The notes below the pieces were generated by a model. It made no database searches and was not told the origin of the DNA. It saw nothing but the letters and a program-made list of their open reading frames with translations. This document shows, one piece after another, positions 40,381 to 49,396 of a DNA stretch of 53,766 nucleotides; positions within the stretch are counted from its first letter, which is position 1; each line of letters starts with the position of its first letter. Location of the stretch: contig JAIUNY010000020.1 in assembly GCA_020161505.1 (NCBI GenBank), positions 1-53,766 of the forward strand, read 5' to 3'. The DNA comes from Armatimonadota bacterium (lineage in GTDB: Bacteria > Armatimonadota > Fimbriimonadia > Fimbriimonadales > Fimbriimonadaceae). A program made the position numbers and the translations under genes.

Positions 40381-41175
40381 TTATCCGATATTTTCAGGCG
40401 GATTCACGAGATTCTCTCTACTTAACTGCTTGAACTCCTTGCTGTTTTCGATCACAATCACCGCGTAGAAGATGAGAAGAGCTATGTGCCCAATTATTCC
40501 ATCCAGTACTGTGTGCCAAAGAACGTCTGCACTCCGCGCAGGATAATTTAGGCGAAGGTCGAATCGAGGATCTCGATTCTTGAATTCGACGACTTGAAGC
40601 TTCTTTCCAACGAGTTCTCCCGTCGGGGAGAGGTGCGATGGCAACAAGAACCACTGTTGGAGTACCTGGCTACCCGCTCGGAATCTTAGCTCCACGGAGG
40701 CTGGCTCCTCGACGTCCTCTTCGTGGATGGCTGGTTGAAATGAGACAACCTCACCTTGAATCTTTCCGACTTTAGATTCGAGAACAGCGGAAGATCTCAG
40801 CCATAGTTCGATCTTATCGGCGAGGATTCCGATGGGCAGGAACAAGCACAATGCCGTAACAATGTAGGCACGCCAGGGATTTACGTTATTCTTTTCACTA
40901 AAATACACGACAAAGCAGAGACCAATGGCGCCGACCAGAAGCCACAGTCTCCGATACTCTGCATCGGGAGAAAACGCACCGCCAAGTAAGATAACTATGC
41001 CAGCGGGCAGTAAGACTCTCCGAAGCTCCAACGAAGACAAGTATACGAGCGAAAGCATAGTCAGCGCCTGCCCTACCAAAATGTCAATGGCCCGGATACG
41101 CGACATCGTGATCCAAATAGGTAGGCATGAAACTAAGATCAAAGCTAGCCCTATTCGACCCCGCTGATTCATCAT
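40381..41175 (-). CDS. polytopic membrane protein of unknown function
   Basis: The 264-residue product has five N-terminal membrane helices within residues 1-120 (for instance IGLALILVSCLPIWITM and LWLLVGAIGLCFVVYF). An extracytoplasmic region of about 100 residues with beta pattern follows (GKIQGEVVSFQPA, then VVEFKNRDPRFDLRL), and a final helix (IIGHIALLIFYAVIVI). No transport or catalytic motif is seen. Codon use is poorer in GC than in the core genes, for example ATA and TTA codons, which suggests acquisition. It converges with the preceding secreted-protein gene. Confidence 0.65.
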   Translation of the reverse strand: MMNQRGRIGLALILVSCLPIWITMSRIRAIDILVGQALTMLSLVYLSSLELRRVLLPAGIVILLGGAFSPDAEYRRLWLLVGAIGLCFVVYFSEKNNVNPWRAYIVTALCLFLPIGILADKIELWLRSSAVLESKVGKIQGEVVSFQPAIHEEDVEEPASVELRFRAGSQVLQQWFLLPSHLSPTGELVGKKLQVVEFKNRDPRFDLRLNYPARSADVLWHTVLDGIIGHIALLIFYAVIVIENSKEFKQLSRENLVNPPENIG

Positions 41176-41249
41176 GTCTTTAGTATATTGGATAGCCTCA
41201 AAGGTACACTGGAGAATCTTTTGTTGACCCCTCGCAGGTTGGAGTCTGT

Positions 41250-41291
41250 CAACACACTCTGCTGAGTTCTTGAACCCAGCAGAGTGTGTTG
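41250..41291. terminator. long perfect inverted repeat between two membrane-protein genes
   Basis: CAACACACTCTGCTG pairs perfectly with CAGCAGAGTGTGTTG (15 bp) around a 12-base loop, 10 bases past the stop of the minus-strand gene to the right. No T run is present on either strand; it is probably a transcript-end structure, though the stem is unusually long. Confidence 0.55.
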
Positions 41292-41301
41292 GGTCGAACG
41301 C

Positions 41302-41832
41302 TTAGTCAAGGCGTTTTTGGACCATGATCGACTCTACGGATTCGATTGCCCCGTCCGGGAAATCAGCGAATTCATCAGCTGATTTACCCGAAACATACGC
41401 GCCCCAGACCCACTCGACAGGATAGTAGCGACACCCTCCCGGTATCCCATTGCGCAACAGCAGCGTGTCCGCCCTGGTTAGCCACTCAACAAATTTGTCA
41501 GCCTCGTCATCCGAAAGGCGATCAACCACTGAATCAAGGCTCGGAACGAAGTCTCCCTTTCGAGTTGGAATCTTTGATCTGTCGGGAAGAATCCCCCACA
41601 CGACGGGAGCGATGAATGAGCAGAGAAATCCGATCAGGTTACCAACACGTCGGTTGTAGCCCTTCGATTCCCAGAGGTCTCCTGCTAGCCAGGCCGAGAG
41701 TATTCCGCCGATCACATATGCGTACGCTCCCTCAGTTGCCCCCCAAACCAGGTAGCCAAGGATGAATGCGAATCCATATACGATCAGTGCTCGGCTCTTT
41801 CTAAACTGAGTAATCCCCTCAAGCGTTTCCAC
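41302..41832 (-). CDS. membrane protein of unknown function
   Basis: The 176-residue protein has three membrane helices in its first half (ALIVYGFAFILGYLVWGA, YAYVIGGILSAWLAG, LIGFLCSFIAPVVWGIL). A soluble, acidic C-terminal half follows (VDRLSDDEADKFVEWLTRADTLLLRNGIPGG), resembling a small helical domain. Codons are less GC-rich than in core genes. It is encoded just past the 3-prime end of the tRNA-Thr gene on the same strand, a position where acquired DNA often sits. Function unknown. Confidence 0.65.
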   Translation of the reverse strand: METLEGITQFRKSRALIVYGFAFILGYLVWGATEGAYAYVIGGILSAWLAGDLWESKGYNRRVGNLIGFLCSFIAPVVWGILPDRSKIPTRKGDFVPSLDSVVDRLSDDEADKFVEWLTRADTLLLRNGIPGGCRYYPVEWVWGAYVSGKSADEFADFPDGAIESVESIMVQKRLD

Positions 41833-41922: not shown

Positions 41923-41997
41923 TGGAGCCACTTGCCGGATTCGAACCGGCGACCTGCTGTTTACGAAACAGCTGCTCTACCACTGAGCTAAAGTGGC
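41923..41997 (-). tRNA. tRNA-Thr (anticodon CGU), CCA encoded
   Basis: Read on the minus strand, the gene folds as a full cloverleaf. The acceptor is GCCACTT with AAGTGGC. The D-arm lies in GCTCAGTGGTAGAGC. The anticodon stem is GCTGT/ACAGC with loop TTCGTAA, giving anticodon CGU. The T-arm is GCCGG-TTCGAATC-CGGC. The discriminator base is U and the CCA end is encoded. Total length is 75 bases. Confidence 0.96.
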
Positions 41998-44395: not shown

Positions 44396-45403
44396 TCAGT
44401 GTATTTTTGAATCTGAGGATTTCAGAGTTGCCACCCGGTATTTTCCGTAACGCTGCACCAAATAGGTTTCCTTGGAGCGATCTATATGCACCGTGGAGTT
44501 CCAGCTCTCTCTACCCGGTACCGGAGAATCCGTGAGGAGCTCCCAGCCGGAGCCGTTGAAAAGGTAGGCAACAGTTTGCCGATCATAGCCCCCGTTGTAG
44601 ATCACATCAGCCTCGACAATGAAGCGTTTGCCCGACTTCGCAATGATCTTGCAGCCGTACGATTCCGCATTGTGTTTCCTGGCTGTCGCGACCAGATCCG
44701 GCGGCATTTGCAGCCGCACCAGCTTTGAGCCAACCACATAGGCTGGCGTTTGCGGCATCACCATGTGGGTTTCTAGATGAGCAAATTCCCCTTGGGCAAG
44801 CATGTCTGGATCAACATCCCACCACGCATAGGTGCCGCCGATCATCTCGCCTTCTGTCGAGTAGCCCATGGGCGAAAACTGCTGCGGCGAGGGGAGTTCA
44901 AAGTGGAGCCACTTCCCCGGGAGGCCAGAGTAAACGTTCGGTCGTTTGCCGCTTACCACCATCAGCAGACTCCCATCCGGGCGGCTCCCGGCGATCCGGA
45001 AATAGTAGCCCTCTGGCCGAGGCCATTTTTCGGGCGGTTCGGTGGGCTTGCTGATGGAGTATCGCCAAAGATAGGGCACCCGCCCGTCATCCTCGCTCGG
45101 AGCTACCCAAATACTTTGGTCATCGACCAGGTGGACGAGCCCATCGATGGCGATCGAAACTCCTGGGCGATTCAAGAGCAGCACTGATTTCGTCTGTGGG
45201 TTCCAACCCCAAACCTGACCCGAGTCATTGACAACCCATTTCTCCCCAATCACGATGTATCCCTCTGGATCCGGCTGAGGTTCCTCGCGTGGGAGCCGCT
45301 TTAGAACAGGTGTCGTTCCACTCAGCCCCACAATGGCGAACCCTTTCGGAATAGGACGAAACTCGCTGCTCGCAAGGACGAAGGCCAGAAGGGGGGTTAA
45401 CAT
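44396..45403 (-). CDS. secreted propeller-like protein, divergent member of a three-copy family
   Basis: The 335-residue product has a weak signal (LTPLLAFVLASS) and repeating short units such as GQVWGWNPQTKSVLLL, QSIWVAPSEDDGRVPYLWRYS and GSLLMVVSGKRPNVYSG that look like propeller blades. The segment KLVRLQMPPDL, followed by a hydrophobic-charged alternation and GSGWELL, corresponds to GIVKLGMPTSK...DGKWSSIL in the copy at 46785 and to RVKLLGLPDPY...GKSWSLLF in the copy at 45479. It is the last gene of a minus-strand cluster. No family name is known to me. Confidence 0.62.
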   Translation of the reverse strand: MLTPLLAFVLASSEFRPIPKGFAIVGLSGTTPVLKRLPREEPQPDPEGYIVIGEKWVVNDSGQVWGWNPQTKSVLLLNRPGVSIAIDGLVHLVDDQSIWVAPSEDDGRVPYLWRYSISKPTEPPEKWPRPEGYYFRIAGSRPDGSLLMVVSGKRPNVYSGLPGKWLHFELPSPQQFSPMGYSTEGEMIGGTYAWWDVDPDMLAQGEFAHLETHMVMPQTPAYVVGSKLVRLQMPPDLVATARKHNAESYGCKIIAKSGKRFIVEADVIYNGGYDRQTVAYLFNGSGWELLTDSPVPGRESWNSTVHIDRSKETYLVQRYGKYRVATLKSSDSKIH

Positions 45404-45478
45404 GTTGTTTTCTCTGAACTTATTAGGAGTGCATTTCTGGGCGTCTCGAACTATGTATGCCGCTGGGTTCGCGCCGGG

Positions 45479-46438
45479 TTACTCCTTCCAATTGCGGTAC
45501 CACTTTTCGCCGTCGGTGAAGAGCATGGTTCCGGCGCTTGTGTCGTAGTGGATCTCCGTGATCGCTTTCGGGAACAAGAGCGACCAGGATTTTCCATCAT
45601 GTTGCCACAGGAAGAAATCTGTCCTCTGAGGGGGAGAGTAGCGAGGGAAGTCCAGGGTCGCGAGCCAGATGGAATTCTGCCCCTTCACGATGATCGGCAC
45701 AATCTCGAGCCCAATGGGGTACTCCTCTTGGTATGGATCGGGCAATCCGAGCAATTTGACACGCCCATCGGCATAGACGGCTGGGGTGCTCTCTTCGCGA
45801 TTGCGAAATTCGGTAGAGGGGGGATTTGTAAATGTACCAAATCCTGCGGACTCCGGGAAGTACTTCTCAAGAACGCCCACCAGCCGATCCCCTACGACAA
45901 ATGAGGGACGAAACGCGGCCTCGGGGAAGGAAGTGTTCGACAGTTCCGACCAGGCTCCGTGCTTCCATTCGAGAGTCGAAAAGCCTCGGTCTTCGGCATA
46001 AGTGGCTAGGAATACCGCTCCGGATGGGGTAAGGCGCAGCTGACTTCCCTCGACCCACGAGGGGTTTGGGGCGATCTTCTCCGCCCCCCGCGAGGAAACT
46101 AACTCCCGTTCACCGCCGTCCTTCACAATCGCGAAGTCACGGTTGGCGATGAGCACCTTTCCTTGAAGCGTGGCCTCCCCTTTCTCACGAAGTATCGTTT
46201 CAGACCCTTCAGCATAGTTCGTCCAGATGGCTCCGGCACACCCGATGATCAGATCCGCACCAATGATGAAAGGTAAGGAACTTTGCTTGGCTGAGCCACT
46301 AACCTTGAGAAATCCACCCTGTTTTGAAACCACCTTTTGCCCAAGGAGCCCCACAGGCCGATCCTTCAGGGATTGAACTTGAACCAAGCAATCAGGCATT
46401 GCATTATGAAAAAGACATATTGCTAGACATGTAATCAT
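45479..46438 (-). CDS. secreted propeller-like protein, copy 2
   Basis: The 319-residue protein ends with a block shared with the copy at 46785: RVKLLGLPDPY, then GLEIVPIIVKGQNSIWLATLD, FFLWQHDGKSWSLLF, and a tail ending GEKWYRNWKE that matches DDKYLKNW there. Its short N-terminal hydrophobic stretch (ITCLAICLFHNAMP) could be an export signal. Its ATG overlaps the stop of the small DPYGP-domain gene by four bases, so those two are cotranslated. That is the same order as the larger pair at 46785-49147. Unknown function. Confidence 0.65.
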   Translation of the reverse strand: MITCLAICLFHNAMPDCLVQVQSLKDRPVGLLGQKVVSKQGGFLKVSGSAKQSSLPFIIGADLIIGCAGAIWTNYAEGSETILREKGEATLQGKVLIANRDFAIVKDGGERELVSSRGAEKIAPNPSWVEGSQLRLTPSGAVFLATYAEDRGFSTLEWKHGAWSELSNTSFPEAAFRPSFVVGDRLVGVLEKYFPESAGFGTFTNPPSTEFRNREESTPAVYADGRVKLLGLPDPYQEEYPIGLEIVPIIVKGQNSIWLATLDFPRYSPPQRTDFFLWQHDGKSWSLLFPKAITEIHYDTSAGTMLFTDGEKWYRNWKE

Positions 46439-46722
46439 TTTTCCATCACCAATGCGATGCGGTAGCCATGCACATTGTTTTCGTTCCAGAGTCTCCAGCG
46501 CACCGCTTTACTATTGTGCTTCGCTGCCCTTTCCGTGGGAGGATCTGGCAAGATACCAGGGCCGTAAGGGTCTTCTCCGCAGTATATGAGATCCTCGAAG
46601 ACATCCTCAAAAGACTCTGGTTTGATGCCCCCAGCTGACTCAAAGAACACCAAATCATCCCACCCAAGGCCAGCAAGAGCCTTCTCTTGTCTATCGTTTT
46701 TTAACGTACCCTCGCTACCCAT
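46435..46722 (-). CDS. small stand-alone DPYGP-motif protein
   Basis: The 95-residue product has no signal peptide. Near residue 45 it carries FEDLIYCGEDPYGPGILPDP, which matches the C-terminus of the large secreted protein at 47735-49147 (VLHYYGQDPYGPEVLPNP). Similarity continues through KHNSKAVRWRLWNENNVHGYRIALV against MNSTAIRNQTVNFSNEVTSIRLV. It is thus a detached copy of that C-terminal domain, followed at once by a propeller-like gene, as is the large protein. It could be a remnant of a duplication whose 5-prime part was lost, or a functional cytoplasmic module. Base composition is poor in GC. Confidence 0.6.
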   Translation of the reverse strand: MGSEGTLKNDRQEKALAGLGWDDLVFFESAGGIKPESFEDVFEDLIYCGEDPYGPGILPDPPTERAAKHNSKAVRWRLWNENNVHGYRIALVMEK

Positions 46723-46784
46723 TCCTAACAGTTTGATCGCAAGACATTAGCAATATATCGCCTCAGTCACTTTCAGGTGGTCAA

Positions 46785-47735
46785 TTACCAGTTTTTCAGA
46801 TACTTATCATCCACACGTAAGACACAAGTCCCTTCGGAGGTATCTGACCAATATGAGATGCTCTTCGCAGTCAGGATGCTCGACCATTTGCCGTCTCGCA
46901 GTAAGAACAATTCGTACCACCGGTTTTCAATGTCATGACCCTGGAGGTCGGCTAACCAGAGCGATTCTGAGCCTCGATGCCAAATGGGCTCTATCTCCGC
47001 ACCGCTCGGATAGACCTCATCCGGCTTCAGTCTTTTGCTCGTCGGCATACCGAGTTTCACAATGCCTGTACGCGTTGCGAGAGCGGGTACATAACGCCGC
47101 ACTGGGCCAAGCTGGGTAACGAACGAACTCGAAAAACTCCCTTGCTCTGGGTTCGATAGTCGGACGGTTTTCAACATTCCGAGAACGCCACCTCCGTACT
47201 CCATTGATGGGATGAACGCGTATTCGTGACTCAGCTCCACTCCACCCACAGCCGCCAACCCTCTTTCGGTTCCATGAAGCAATTCGTATCCCCTCCGATC
47301 AGAGTAAACGCCCGCCCAGACATCCCCACTGTTCGTGATGAGCACTTGACTGTCGAGAACGTCTTCCGGGAGTTCAAAGGTTCTGTCCACTTTCCCAGTC
47401 GCGGCGACCATCCACTTACCTTTCTGCTGAAACAAGATTGAAGAAAGGGTCATGCGGGCAATGAGCCAACCTTCTGGCTGAACCACTACTTCACCAGATT
47501 CGACCCTTAAACCGATAGCTTTGCGATCTAAGTAGCCCGAGACTACTACGCCGTTTCCTAGGGAAGATGGCGATGACAGATCCGCTTTGGCGACTTGCTC
47601 AAGTAGTTCTTCATCGTACAATGTCCTCCCCGAAAGATGCATCGGACGAAACTTACTTGGCACATCAGTAAGCTCGGTAAAGCGTAATGCGGGAGGGTTC
47701 AGGCTTAAACATGCAGCAATGAGCACTGAGATCAC
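46785..47735 (-). CDS. secreted propeller-like protein, copy 1
   Basis: The 316-residue product begins at a GTG whose G is the last base of the upstream stop (TAGTG), giving tight coupling with the large secreted gene. A short signal (ISVLIAACLSLNPPA) precedes repeated strands such as KWMVAATGKVDRTFEL, QVLITNSGDVWAGVYSDRRG and ESLWLADLQGHDIENRW. Its C-terminal third (GIVKLGMP, SGAEIEPIWHRG, LFLLRDGKWSSILTAKSISYW) is clearly related to the copy at 45479. Probably a periplasmic or surface propeller. No named family. Confidence 0.65.
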   Translation of the reverse strand: MISVLIAACLSLNPPALRFTELTDVPSKFRPMHLSGRTLYDEELLEQVAKADLSSPSSLGNGVVVSGYLDRKAIGLRVESGEVVVQPEGWLIARMTLSSILFQQKGKWMVAATGKVDRTFELPEDVLDSQVLITNSGDVWAGVYSDRRGYELLHGTERGLAAVGGVELSHEYAFIPSMEYGGGVLGMLKTVRLSNPEQGSFSSSFVTQLGPVRRYVPALATRTGIVKLGMPTSKRLKPDEVYPSGAEIEPIWHRGSESLWLADLQGHDIENRWYELFLLRDGKWSSILTAKSISYWSDTSEGTCVLRVDDKYLKNW

Positions 47736-49147
47736 TAGCGCACCAACCTAATAGATGTTACTTCATTTGAAAAGTTAACGGTCTGGTTTCGTATTGCAGT
47801 TGAATTCATGACCATGCCCTCGCCCGGGTTCGGCAAAACCTCTGGGCCATACGGATCCTGGCCGTAATAGTGAAGCACTGCATCAATATCCGATGCGACG
47901 ACGGGCCGCGGCGCAACCCCATTTCGACCCAAGGAGATGTTACTCCAGTTTAGGCCGGCAACTCTCGTGCCTCCATTCGTATCCACTTTAAACGGCCCAT
48001 TTCTCGCGACGCTAGATACCCACTTTGGACGAACTCCGGTGCCAGCTTTTGTCCAAACTCCATAAGTGTCAATAAACCCAAAGGTAGCGTTTTCAACGCC
48101 GATTGTCTGGCCCTCGAACCTGTATCTTACTGCGACTGCTTTATCAAGTGTTCTCACACTAAGCCTGGCCTCGCGACCAGGAGGGAGAAATACCCGATGA
48201 CCGCCCTTGGGAAAGGCTAACTGATGAAAGGAGTCATCAGACGGTTTAAAGACTAGATATGGCTTCCAAGGGGCATACGTACAACTTCCGTTGTTGCCGT
48301 CGAAAAAGAAACCTGCTTCTAAGTGCACCGATCTCGCTACGCCAGCGATTTCCCTCTTCGCGTCCATTCCGAAATAATGATAAATGTTGTCGATATCTCT
48401 GGGCTTGTTAGGATTCTGAGGAGGCGCGACGTACAACGACTTCAACTCTGGTAGCACCGTTGTTGCTTGCATGAAGTTATAGTCCGCGTTTACCGTCACG
48501 CGCCGAAAAATACCAGAATCCATGCCGCTGAAGAAGTTGCCACGCGCGAACTGGCTCGCCGTCGCCGCAGGCATATTATATTGACTGGTCGTCACAAAGT
48601 TATCTTGGTAATTCGGAGGGCCGCTGGTGTTGAGAACTCGCGAGTCGTACCAGCAGACAGGATTGATGTTAACGCCCCCGGTTCCGCCCGATGAACCACC
48701 ACCACCTGGCTCGCTTCCAGAGCCCCCAGTGCCACCCGAGGATGATCCGCCACCTCCCCCTGAGCTACCGCCGCTAAACCAGACCCAGCCCTGAACCTGA
48801 TTGTCCCATGTGTATCCAAGATTTTGGTAGTACGTCAAATCCTGAATCTCGTTAAGGCATCCGTCGTCACCACAGTCCATCAAGCCGTATTTCTCAGCCT
48901 CACCATCCAAATTCGAAATAATCCTACCGTCTGGCAGGTAGATCACAAAAACCCCTGTCTGCTCCTCGACTGGAAGAGAGAGAATGAATTCCAGCAACGC
49001 TTGCTTGTCCGCAAGTGAGAGGTGATCATCGATTCGGAAATCTGCCAAGTTATTCGACGTCTGAGCTTGCGCAGCGAAATGCTGACCAGAAAGAATTACG
49101 ACCGTCAGGGCGACTGCGAGTGAAGCTAGTTTGAAACTCCTCTTCAT
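47735..49147 (-). CDS. large secreted protein with Gly/Ser linker and repeated DIDxxxHYxG motif
   Basis: The start is ATG 49147 (MKRSFKLAS), giving 470 residues with a signal peptide ending AAQAQ. An N-terminal domain of about 90 residues (DDHLSLADKQALLEFILSLP, then VIYLPDGRIISNLDGEA) is followed by a 40-residue Gly/Ser-rich linker. A larger domain comes next, in which DIDNIYHYFGMDA occurs, and the C-terminus holds DIDAVLHYYGQDPYGP. The two motif copies suggest an internal repeat. Cysteines are few. It resembles adhesin-like or multi-domain surface proteins, but I know no family. It is the first gene of the cluster and less GC-rich than core genes. Confidence 0.68.
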   Translation of the reverse strand: MKRSFKLASLAVALTVVILSGQHFAAQAQTSNNLADFRIDDHLSLADKQALLEFILSLPVEEQTGVFVIYLPDGRIISNLDGEAEKYGLMDCGDDGCLNEIQDLTYYQNLGYTWDNQVQGWVWFSGGSSGGGGGSSSGGTGGSGSEPGGGGSSGGTGGVNINPVCWYDSRVLNTSGPPNYQDNFVTTSQYNMPAATASQFARGNFFSGMDSGIFRRVTVNADYNFMQATTVLPELKSLYVAPPQNPNKPRDIDNIYHYFGMDAKREIAGVARSVHLEAGFFFDGNNGSCTYAPWKPYLVFKPSDDSFHQLAFPKGGHRVFLPPGREARLSVRTLDKAVAVRYRFEGQTIGVENATFGFIDTYGVWTKAGTGVRPKWVSSVARNGPFKVDTNGGTRVAGLNWSNISLGRNGVAPRPVVASDIDAVLHYYGQDPYGPEVLPNPGEGMVMNSTAIRNQTVNFSNEVTSIRLVR

Positions 49148-49245
49148 ACGCCGAATGTACAATCATCTGCTGCCTCCGCGCAAGTGACGGTTTTCCGGCA
49201 GAGCCTACTCCACGCACCCATCCCCAGGCCTCGCGAGGCTATCGG

Positions 49246-49254
49246 TGCTATACT
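49246..49254 (+). promoter_or_regulatory. extended -10 promoter of the rpsP operon
   Basis: TGCTATACT contains the TGN extension and a five-of-six -10 box. It lies 135 bases before the rpsP start. A perfect palindrome GCCTCGCGAGGC lies just upstream at 49228-49239, near the -35 position, and could be an operator. The leader to rpsP ends in a hairpin (GGTGC AA GCACC). Confidence 0.5.
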
Positions 49255-49375
49255 TTTCCGCTCGCGGCAGGAGGTTTCAACCGGACGCCGAGGACACCAC
49301 GTCTTTGGATTCCCGTCTACGACGTCCCTCTCCCCCCGCGACACCTGGTGCAAGCACCGGCCCAACCAGGAAAGG

Positions 49376-49396
49376 ATGAACAAAAACCGTGGTTAA
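49376..49396 (+). CDS. six-codon leader ORF overlapping the rpsP start
   Basis: ATG AAC AAA AAC CGT GGT TAA (MNKNRG) follows AGGAAAGG and overlaps the first codons of rpsP out of frame. The strong ribosome-binding sequence is better spaced for this ATG than for the rpsP GTG, so the short ORF may deliver ribosomes to rpsP by termination-reinitiation. Chance cannot be ruled out. Confidence 0.35.
   Translation: MNKNRG

Follow-up and report, generated by a model that had tools for sequence, protein, structure and literature searches.

At positions 44,396–49,147 of the window (the whole stretch of 53,766 nucleotides analysed here, which is the entire contig C7; the assembly comprises 3.14 Mb in 38 contigs), a gene for a DPYGP-motif protein twice precedes a gene for a propeller-like protein. 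The question that this locus raises is whether such a pair is a unit whose products act on each other. The earlier note described five minus-strand genes in the order large DPYGP protein, propeller 1, small DPYGP protein, propeller 2, and propeller 3, and this arrangement was borne out: the open reading frames (ORFs) comprise 470, 316, 95, 319, and 335 aa, respectively. Also as described, both DPYGP genes overlap the next gene. The gene of propeller 1 (46785..47735) starts with GTG and overlaps the TAG of the large gene (47735..49147) by 1 base (GC-TAG-TG), and the gene of propeller 2 (45479..46438) overlaps the small gene (46435..46722) by 4 bases (ATGA). The gene of the propeller-like protein 3 (44396..45403) lies behind a 75-bp gap, and no DPYGP gene stands before it. 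When the region was shuffled 100 times, the longest run free of stops was 255 codons, which all four long ORFs surpass. The cluster is, as had been claimed, GC-poor beside core genes: the GC content of its genes is 0.50–0.56 versus 0.583 for the window, and their GC3 is 0.54–0.64 versus 0.72–0.78 for the core genes obg, rimM, HPPD, and guaA. Promoter- and terminator-like sites were not above the level of shuffled sequence.

The large protein begins with what by eye is a classical Sec-type signal (MKRSFKLASLAVALTVVILSG...AQA), followed by an N-domain (approximately aa 31–95) and a Gly/Ser-rich stretch (approximately aa 124–158), the borders of which were judged from the sequence. Its C-terminal part is beta-rich and carries the DPYGP motif at aa 431–435. 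The small protein is a homologue of the C-terminus (~90 aa) of the large protein (31–34% identity; 34% over 68 aa; BLAST E 1.7e-8; phmmer 4.9e-10). It has no signal, N-domain, or stalk, and its gene is a complete open frame with its own ATG in which the DPYGP motif is kept. The AlphaFold model of the 470-aa protein reached a pLDDT of only 31. An eqolisin (peptidase G1) fold of the beta part, an idea formed by eye, was rejected: in the comparison, which concerned profile similarity to scytalidopepsin/aspergillopepsin, the hhalign score of 16.1 was reached in 3 of 30 column shuffles (maximum 18.7). The matches of the Gly-rich stretch to the PDB and to L004–L007 likewise look like linker or low-complexity matches, and a weak match of the small protein in L058, to an 81-aa frame upstream of ffh, was judged spurious.

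Three related propellers had been proposed, and this holds for two of them. Propellers 1 and 2 are homologous over their full length (26–28% identity; E 1.5e-17). Propeller 3 compared with these two stays at noise level (phmmer E 0.2–0.5; hhalign probability 1.4%), and its shuffle Z of 3.1–3.5 is to be read against a control pair that reaches up to 3.4. Among 294 ORFs, propeller 3 is nevertheless the best non-member for a four-sequence profile (E 0.28), so it may be a distant relative; the four sequences from which the profile was built are by construction part of its tally, and the only match outside them (G186; E 0.007 over 50 positions) was judged to be due to chance. Propeller 3 may be a gene separate from the pairs. 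Regarding the fold, AlphaFold gave for propeller 1, from a two-sequence alignment, a low-confidence all-beta propeller model (pLDDT 54.8; pTM 0.56), in agreement with the earlier description. The top structural matches of the model are mostly beta-propellers of unrelated families, with a best VIA-align Z of 11.2 (over 228 residues) and a Foldseek E of 7.7e-5. This low-confidence model lends moderate support to a predicted beta-propeller with radial four-stranded blades; it speaks for the fold, not for the function. The claim that all proteins but the small one have hydrophobic N-termini usable for export is well founded for the large protein. By eye, the hydrophobic starts of propellers 1–3 are very short and lack a charged n-region; similar starts are present in other exported-type proteins of the genus.

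The large C-terminal part and the small protein (31–34% identity) and propellers 1 and 2 (28%) diverged to similar extents, which suggests that the pair was duplicated as a unit. The proposal of a duplicated two-gene module is supported to this extent; propeller 3, which has no preceding DPYGP gene, may fall outside it.

Does the pair recur elsewhere? A homologue of the large protein was found in the congener G003 (L011:7693-9173; 30% identity over aa 38–368; E 3.5e-8), with 36% identity in the N-part and 27% in the C-part. Its stalk is a collagen-like Gly-X-Y repeat (PF01391, E 9.5e-7, above the cut-off), and the Gly-rich stretch of the window protein lies at the same place. The next gene in G003 (L011:9170-10153) overlaps that of the homologue by 4 bases (ATGA) and encodes a 327-aa exported-type protein (start MMLSLMIVCLTQ), the N-terminus of which is similar to those of the window propellers. 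An overlapping gene pair is therefore present in all three stalk/DPYGP instances, two here and one in G003. The neighbourhood check that the earlier note proposed thus comes out in favour of the module, on small numbers: a stalk gene followed by a coupled ~320-aa gene recurs (n = 1). The G003 homologue, however, lacks the DPYGP motif, and neither the G003 partner nor its G005 relative has significant sequence similarity to propellers 1 and 2. Because of these two absences, the recurring unit is better described as a stalk protein with a coupled exported-type protein of ~320 aa. The G005 relative (L075:1617-2570), which matches the G003 partner with a shuffle Z of 6.2 and a phmmer E of 0.002, occurs without a stalk gene.

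The G003 stalk frame contains one in-frame TAA, beyond which similar sequence goes on without a change of frame, and the 5′ end of the gene is apparently frame-shifted; these two defects point to decay or an assembly error. They bring up the explanation that the small ORF of the window is the remnant of another large gene that lost its 5′ part by deletion, and that perhaps the entire locus is decaying. The small protein, reduced as it is to the C-terminal segment, would fit such a remnant, the frame of which would have remained free of stops either by chance or because it is translationally coupled to propeller 2. However, the full frame, the ATG of its own, and the DPYGP motif kept at ~33% identity indicate that the gene has stayed open far longer than a neutral remnant should, and we regard decay as quite improbable.

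The distribution of these proteins is narrow. The window proteins gave no convincing match in Pfam, NCBIfam, PHROGs, or PADLOC, and their sequence matches in the PDB were of the linker or chance type. Further copies of the cluster proteins were not found in this genome. Among 85 genomes of the family, the N-domain profile matched only this genome and G003. Only this genome was matched by the DPYGP profile (113 genomes of the order searched), by propeller 3 (41 genomes), and by the profile of propellers 1 and 2. A pattern scan of GTDB contigs gave no relatives. The same was true of viral contigs, plasmids, and phages, and a phage or plasmid origin was rejected on this ground. No description of this layout was found in the literature, and the statement that no described system has it stands within the libraries searched.

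The explanation that we favour, while giving it not quite an even chance, is that of a lineage-restricted, probably acquired two-gene cassette, which encodes a surface stalk protein and a coupled exported propeller that docks on the head segment of the former. The first gene would give a surface-displayed protein composed of a signal, a small N-domain, a Gly-rich or collagen-like stalk, and a beta-rich head. The second gene, translationally coupled to the first, would give an exported beta-propeller, whose most likely docking site is the C-terminal head segment. This segment is suggested as the docking part because the reduced second copy keeps just it and its propeller: after the duplication of the pair in this genome, the second stalk gene would have been cut down to the head segment, still coupled to propeller 2. 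On the cell surface, the products of the two genes may bind one another, and their putative role would be the binding of a surface, a polysaccharide, or another cell. We infer the export of the propellers, the surface display, and the docking alike. The overlap in all three pairs, the similar divergence of the duplicated pairs, the propeller 1 model with its structural matches, the collagen-like stalk in G003 with a Gly-rich stretch at the corresponding place here, the low GC3, the narrow distribution, and the insertion into conserved gene clusters (see below) are observations in favour of such a module. The main difficulty is the small protein: it has no export signal, which fits poorly with docking to a propeller that is itself exported. 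Also against it are the occurrence of the stalk gene in two genomes only, the absence of DPYGP and the in-frame stop in G003, the fact that the similarity of the G003 partner to propellers 1 and 2 is not significant, and the G005 relative that has no stalk gene. The explanation is plausible, resting on few instances. If it is true, a bacterial lineage that has been little studied would have a surface module of two proteins that is new, and the head segment that stands alone should bind the propeller encoded next to it.

Among known systems, the BclA-type surface proteins, i.e., bacterial collagen-like proteins with a collagen stalk and a C-terminal beta head, share with the stalk proteins a signal or N-domain, a Gly-X-Y stalk (clear in G003), and a beta-rich C-terminal part. 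They differ in that the Gly-rich stretch of the window protein is not strict Gly-X-Y and is not called by Pfam (PF01391). To our knowledge, a coupled propeller partner is no part of the BclA type. The window propellers resemble the HAF-repeat propellers (TIGR02913) of G004 and G005 in being of the exported type, in size, in genus, and in the expected propeller fold, but neither propellers 1–3 nor the G003 partner match TIGR02913 at the NCBIfam cut-off or show significant pairwise similarity to them.

The third likeness is to the orphan C-terminal/immunity modules of polymorphic toxin loci (CDI, Rhs), in which, likewise, a full-length gene and its partner come first and then a copy truncated to the C-terminal part, again with a partner of its own. 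On this model, the C-terminal part of the large protein would be an active effector that the propeller neutralises, and the small protein with propeller 2 would be an orphan pair. The greater divergence of the partners than of the stalk protein, as well as an insertion site shared with defence-type genes (see below), would agree with an effector and its antagonist. Nevertheless, Pfam, NCBIfam, PHROGs, and PADLOC gave no known domain of a toxin, an immunity protein, or a secretion anchor for the locus (a new family is possible), the identities to G003 of 36% and 27% reveal no sharp border between a constant N-part and a variable C-part, and a propeller would be an unusual immunity protein. We consider this model improbable.

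Ribosomal-protein clusters, which form the genomic setting of both cassettes, are usually strongly conserved. In 8 of 8 relatives examined, ffh directly precedes rpsP; here ffh is on another contig, and the cassette lies in the ffh|rpsP junction, with the large gene head-to-head with rpsP across a divergent intergenic region (49148..49388). The G003 cassette splits rplB|rpsS and is head-to-head with rpsS. Both cassettes are GC-poor. Convincing terminal repeats were found at neither of them, and mobility genes were also not found. From the base composition and the sporadic presence, the cassettes were probably acquired horizontally.

The rplB|rpsS junction of the S10 operon is 28–29 bp long in this genome and G001 and is short in three other families of the order, and it is enlarged with GC-poor cargo in five congeners (L011:7367-10225, L074:3347-4306, L075:1521-3570, L076:4751-5897, and L077:1334-3657). 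The cargo is the stalk gene and its partner in G003, the relative of this partner with a 190-aa exported-type protein in G005, this same 190-aa protein in G006, an AbiU2-type HEPN gene in G002, and an OLD/AriA-like AAA ATPase in G004. The junction is thus an insertion hotspot in the genus. Since the cargo is GC-poor in five species and includes defence-type genes in two, the site could be searched for unknown defence or competition genes. The setting may matter more than the gene pair, and the hotspot may be a more useful observation than the module.

Such a site also suits a rival explanation, according to which fast-evolving, lineage-specific genes for exported proteins have gathered in tolerant GC-poor sites; the overlaps would then be operon packing, and an interaction would not be needed. 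Unrelated cargo at rplB|rpsS in each congener, secreted HAF-repeat propellers near ffh in two congeners too, and the absence of a stalk gene beside propeller 3 and the G005 relative are all as this explanation would have it. The repetition of order and overlap in G003 at a different locus and the apparent duplication of the pair as a unit in this genome speak against it, and we consider such a gathering rather unlikely. A bolder possibility is a new system of surface or inter-bacterial conflict, in which a stalked head with a coupled, fast-diverging propeller and free head/propeller pairs would be carried as cassettes in ribosomal-protein clusters, at a site shared with defence genes; to this we give a low probability.

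Several minor observations were made around these sites. In the five species whose S10 operon is split, a conserved leader lies within the ~280 bases upstream of rpsS (core TTTGCGTCTACTGCTGTCCTAACCTGCC...CCAGACTCAGTTAACTTG; L011:7368-7650 (−), L074:3349-3630 (−), L075:3290-3568 (+), L076:4753-5040 (−), and L077:3370-3655 (+)). It carries a hairpin of variable sequence and has no Rfam match, and the covariation term of the fold is not favourable overall; this element may act as a promoter or as a structured r-protein leader. The HAF-repeat exported propellers beside ffh in G004 and G005 are located at L054:4496-5680 (+) and L055:7091-8155 (−) (TIGR02913 E 6e-39 and 2e-41), and weaker propeller-like exported proteins are found near there in G002 and G007. 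The gene content of the present genome, with for example 68 prepilin-type matches, suggests a relative of Fimbriimonas (Armatimonadota). Finally, the window contains a second GC-poor stretch at 40381-41832 (GC 0.51–0.53; GC3 0.54–0.56), which comprises two predicted membrane-protein genes and adjoins a tRNA gene (41926-41997); this stretch is a candidate for another acquired segment.
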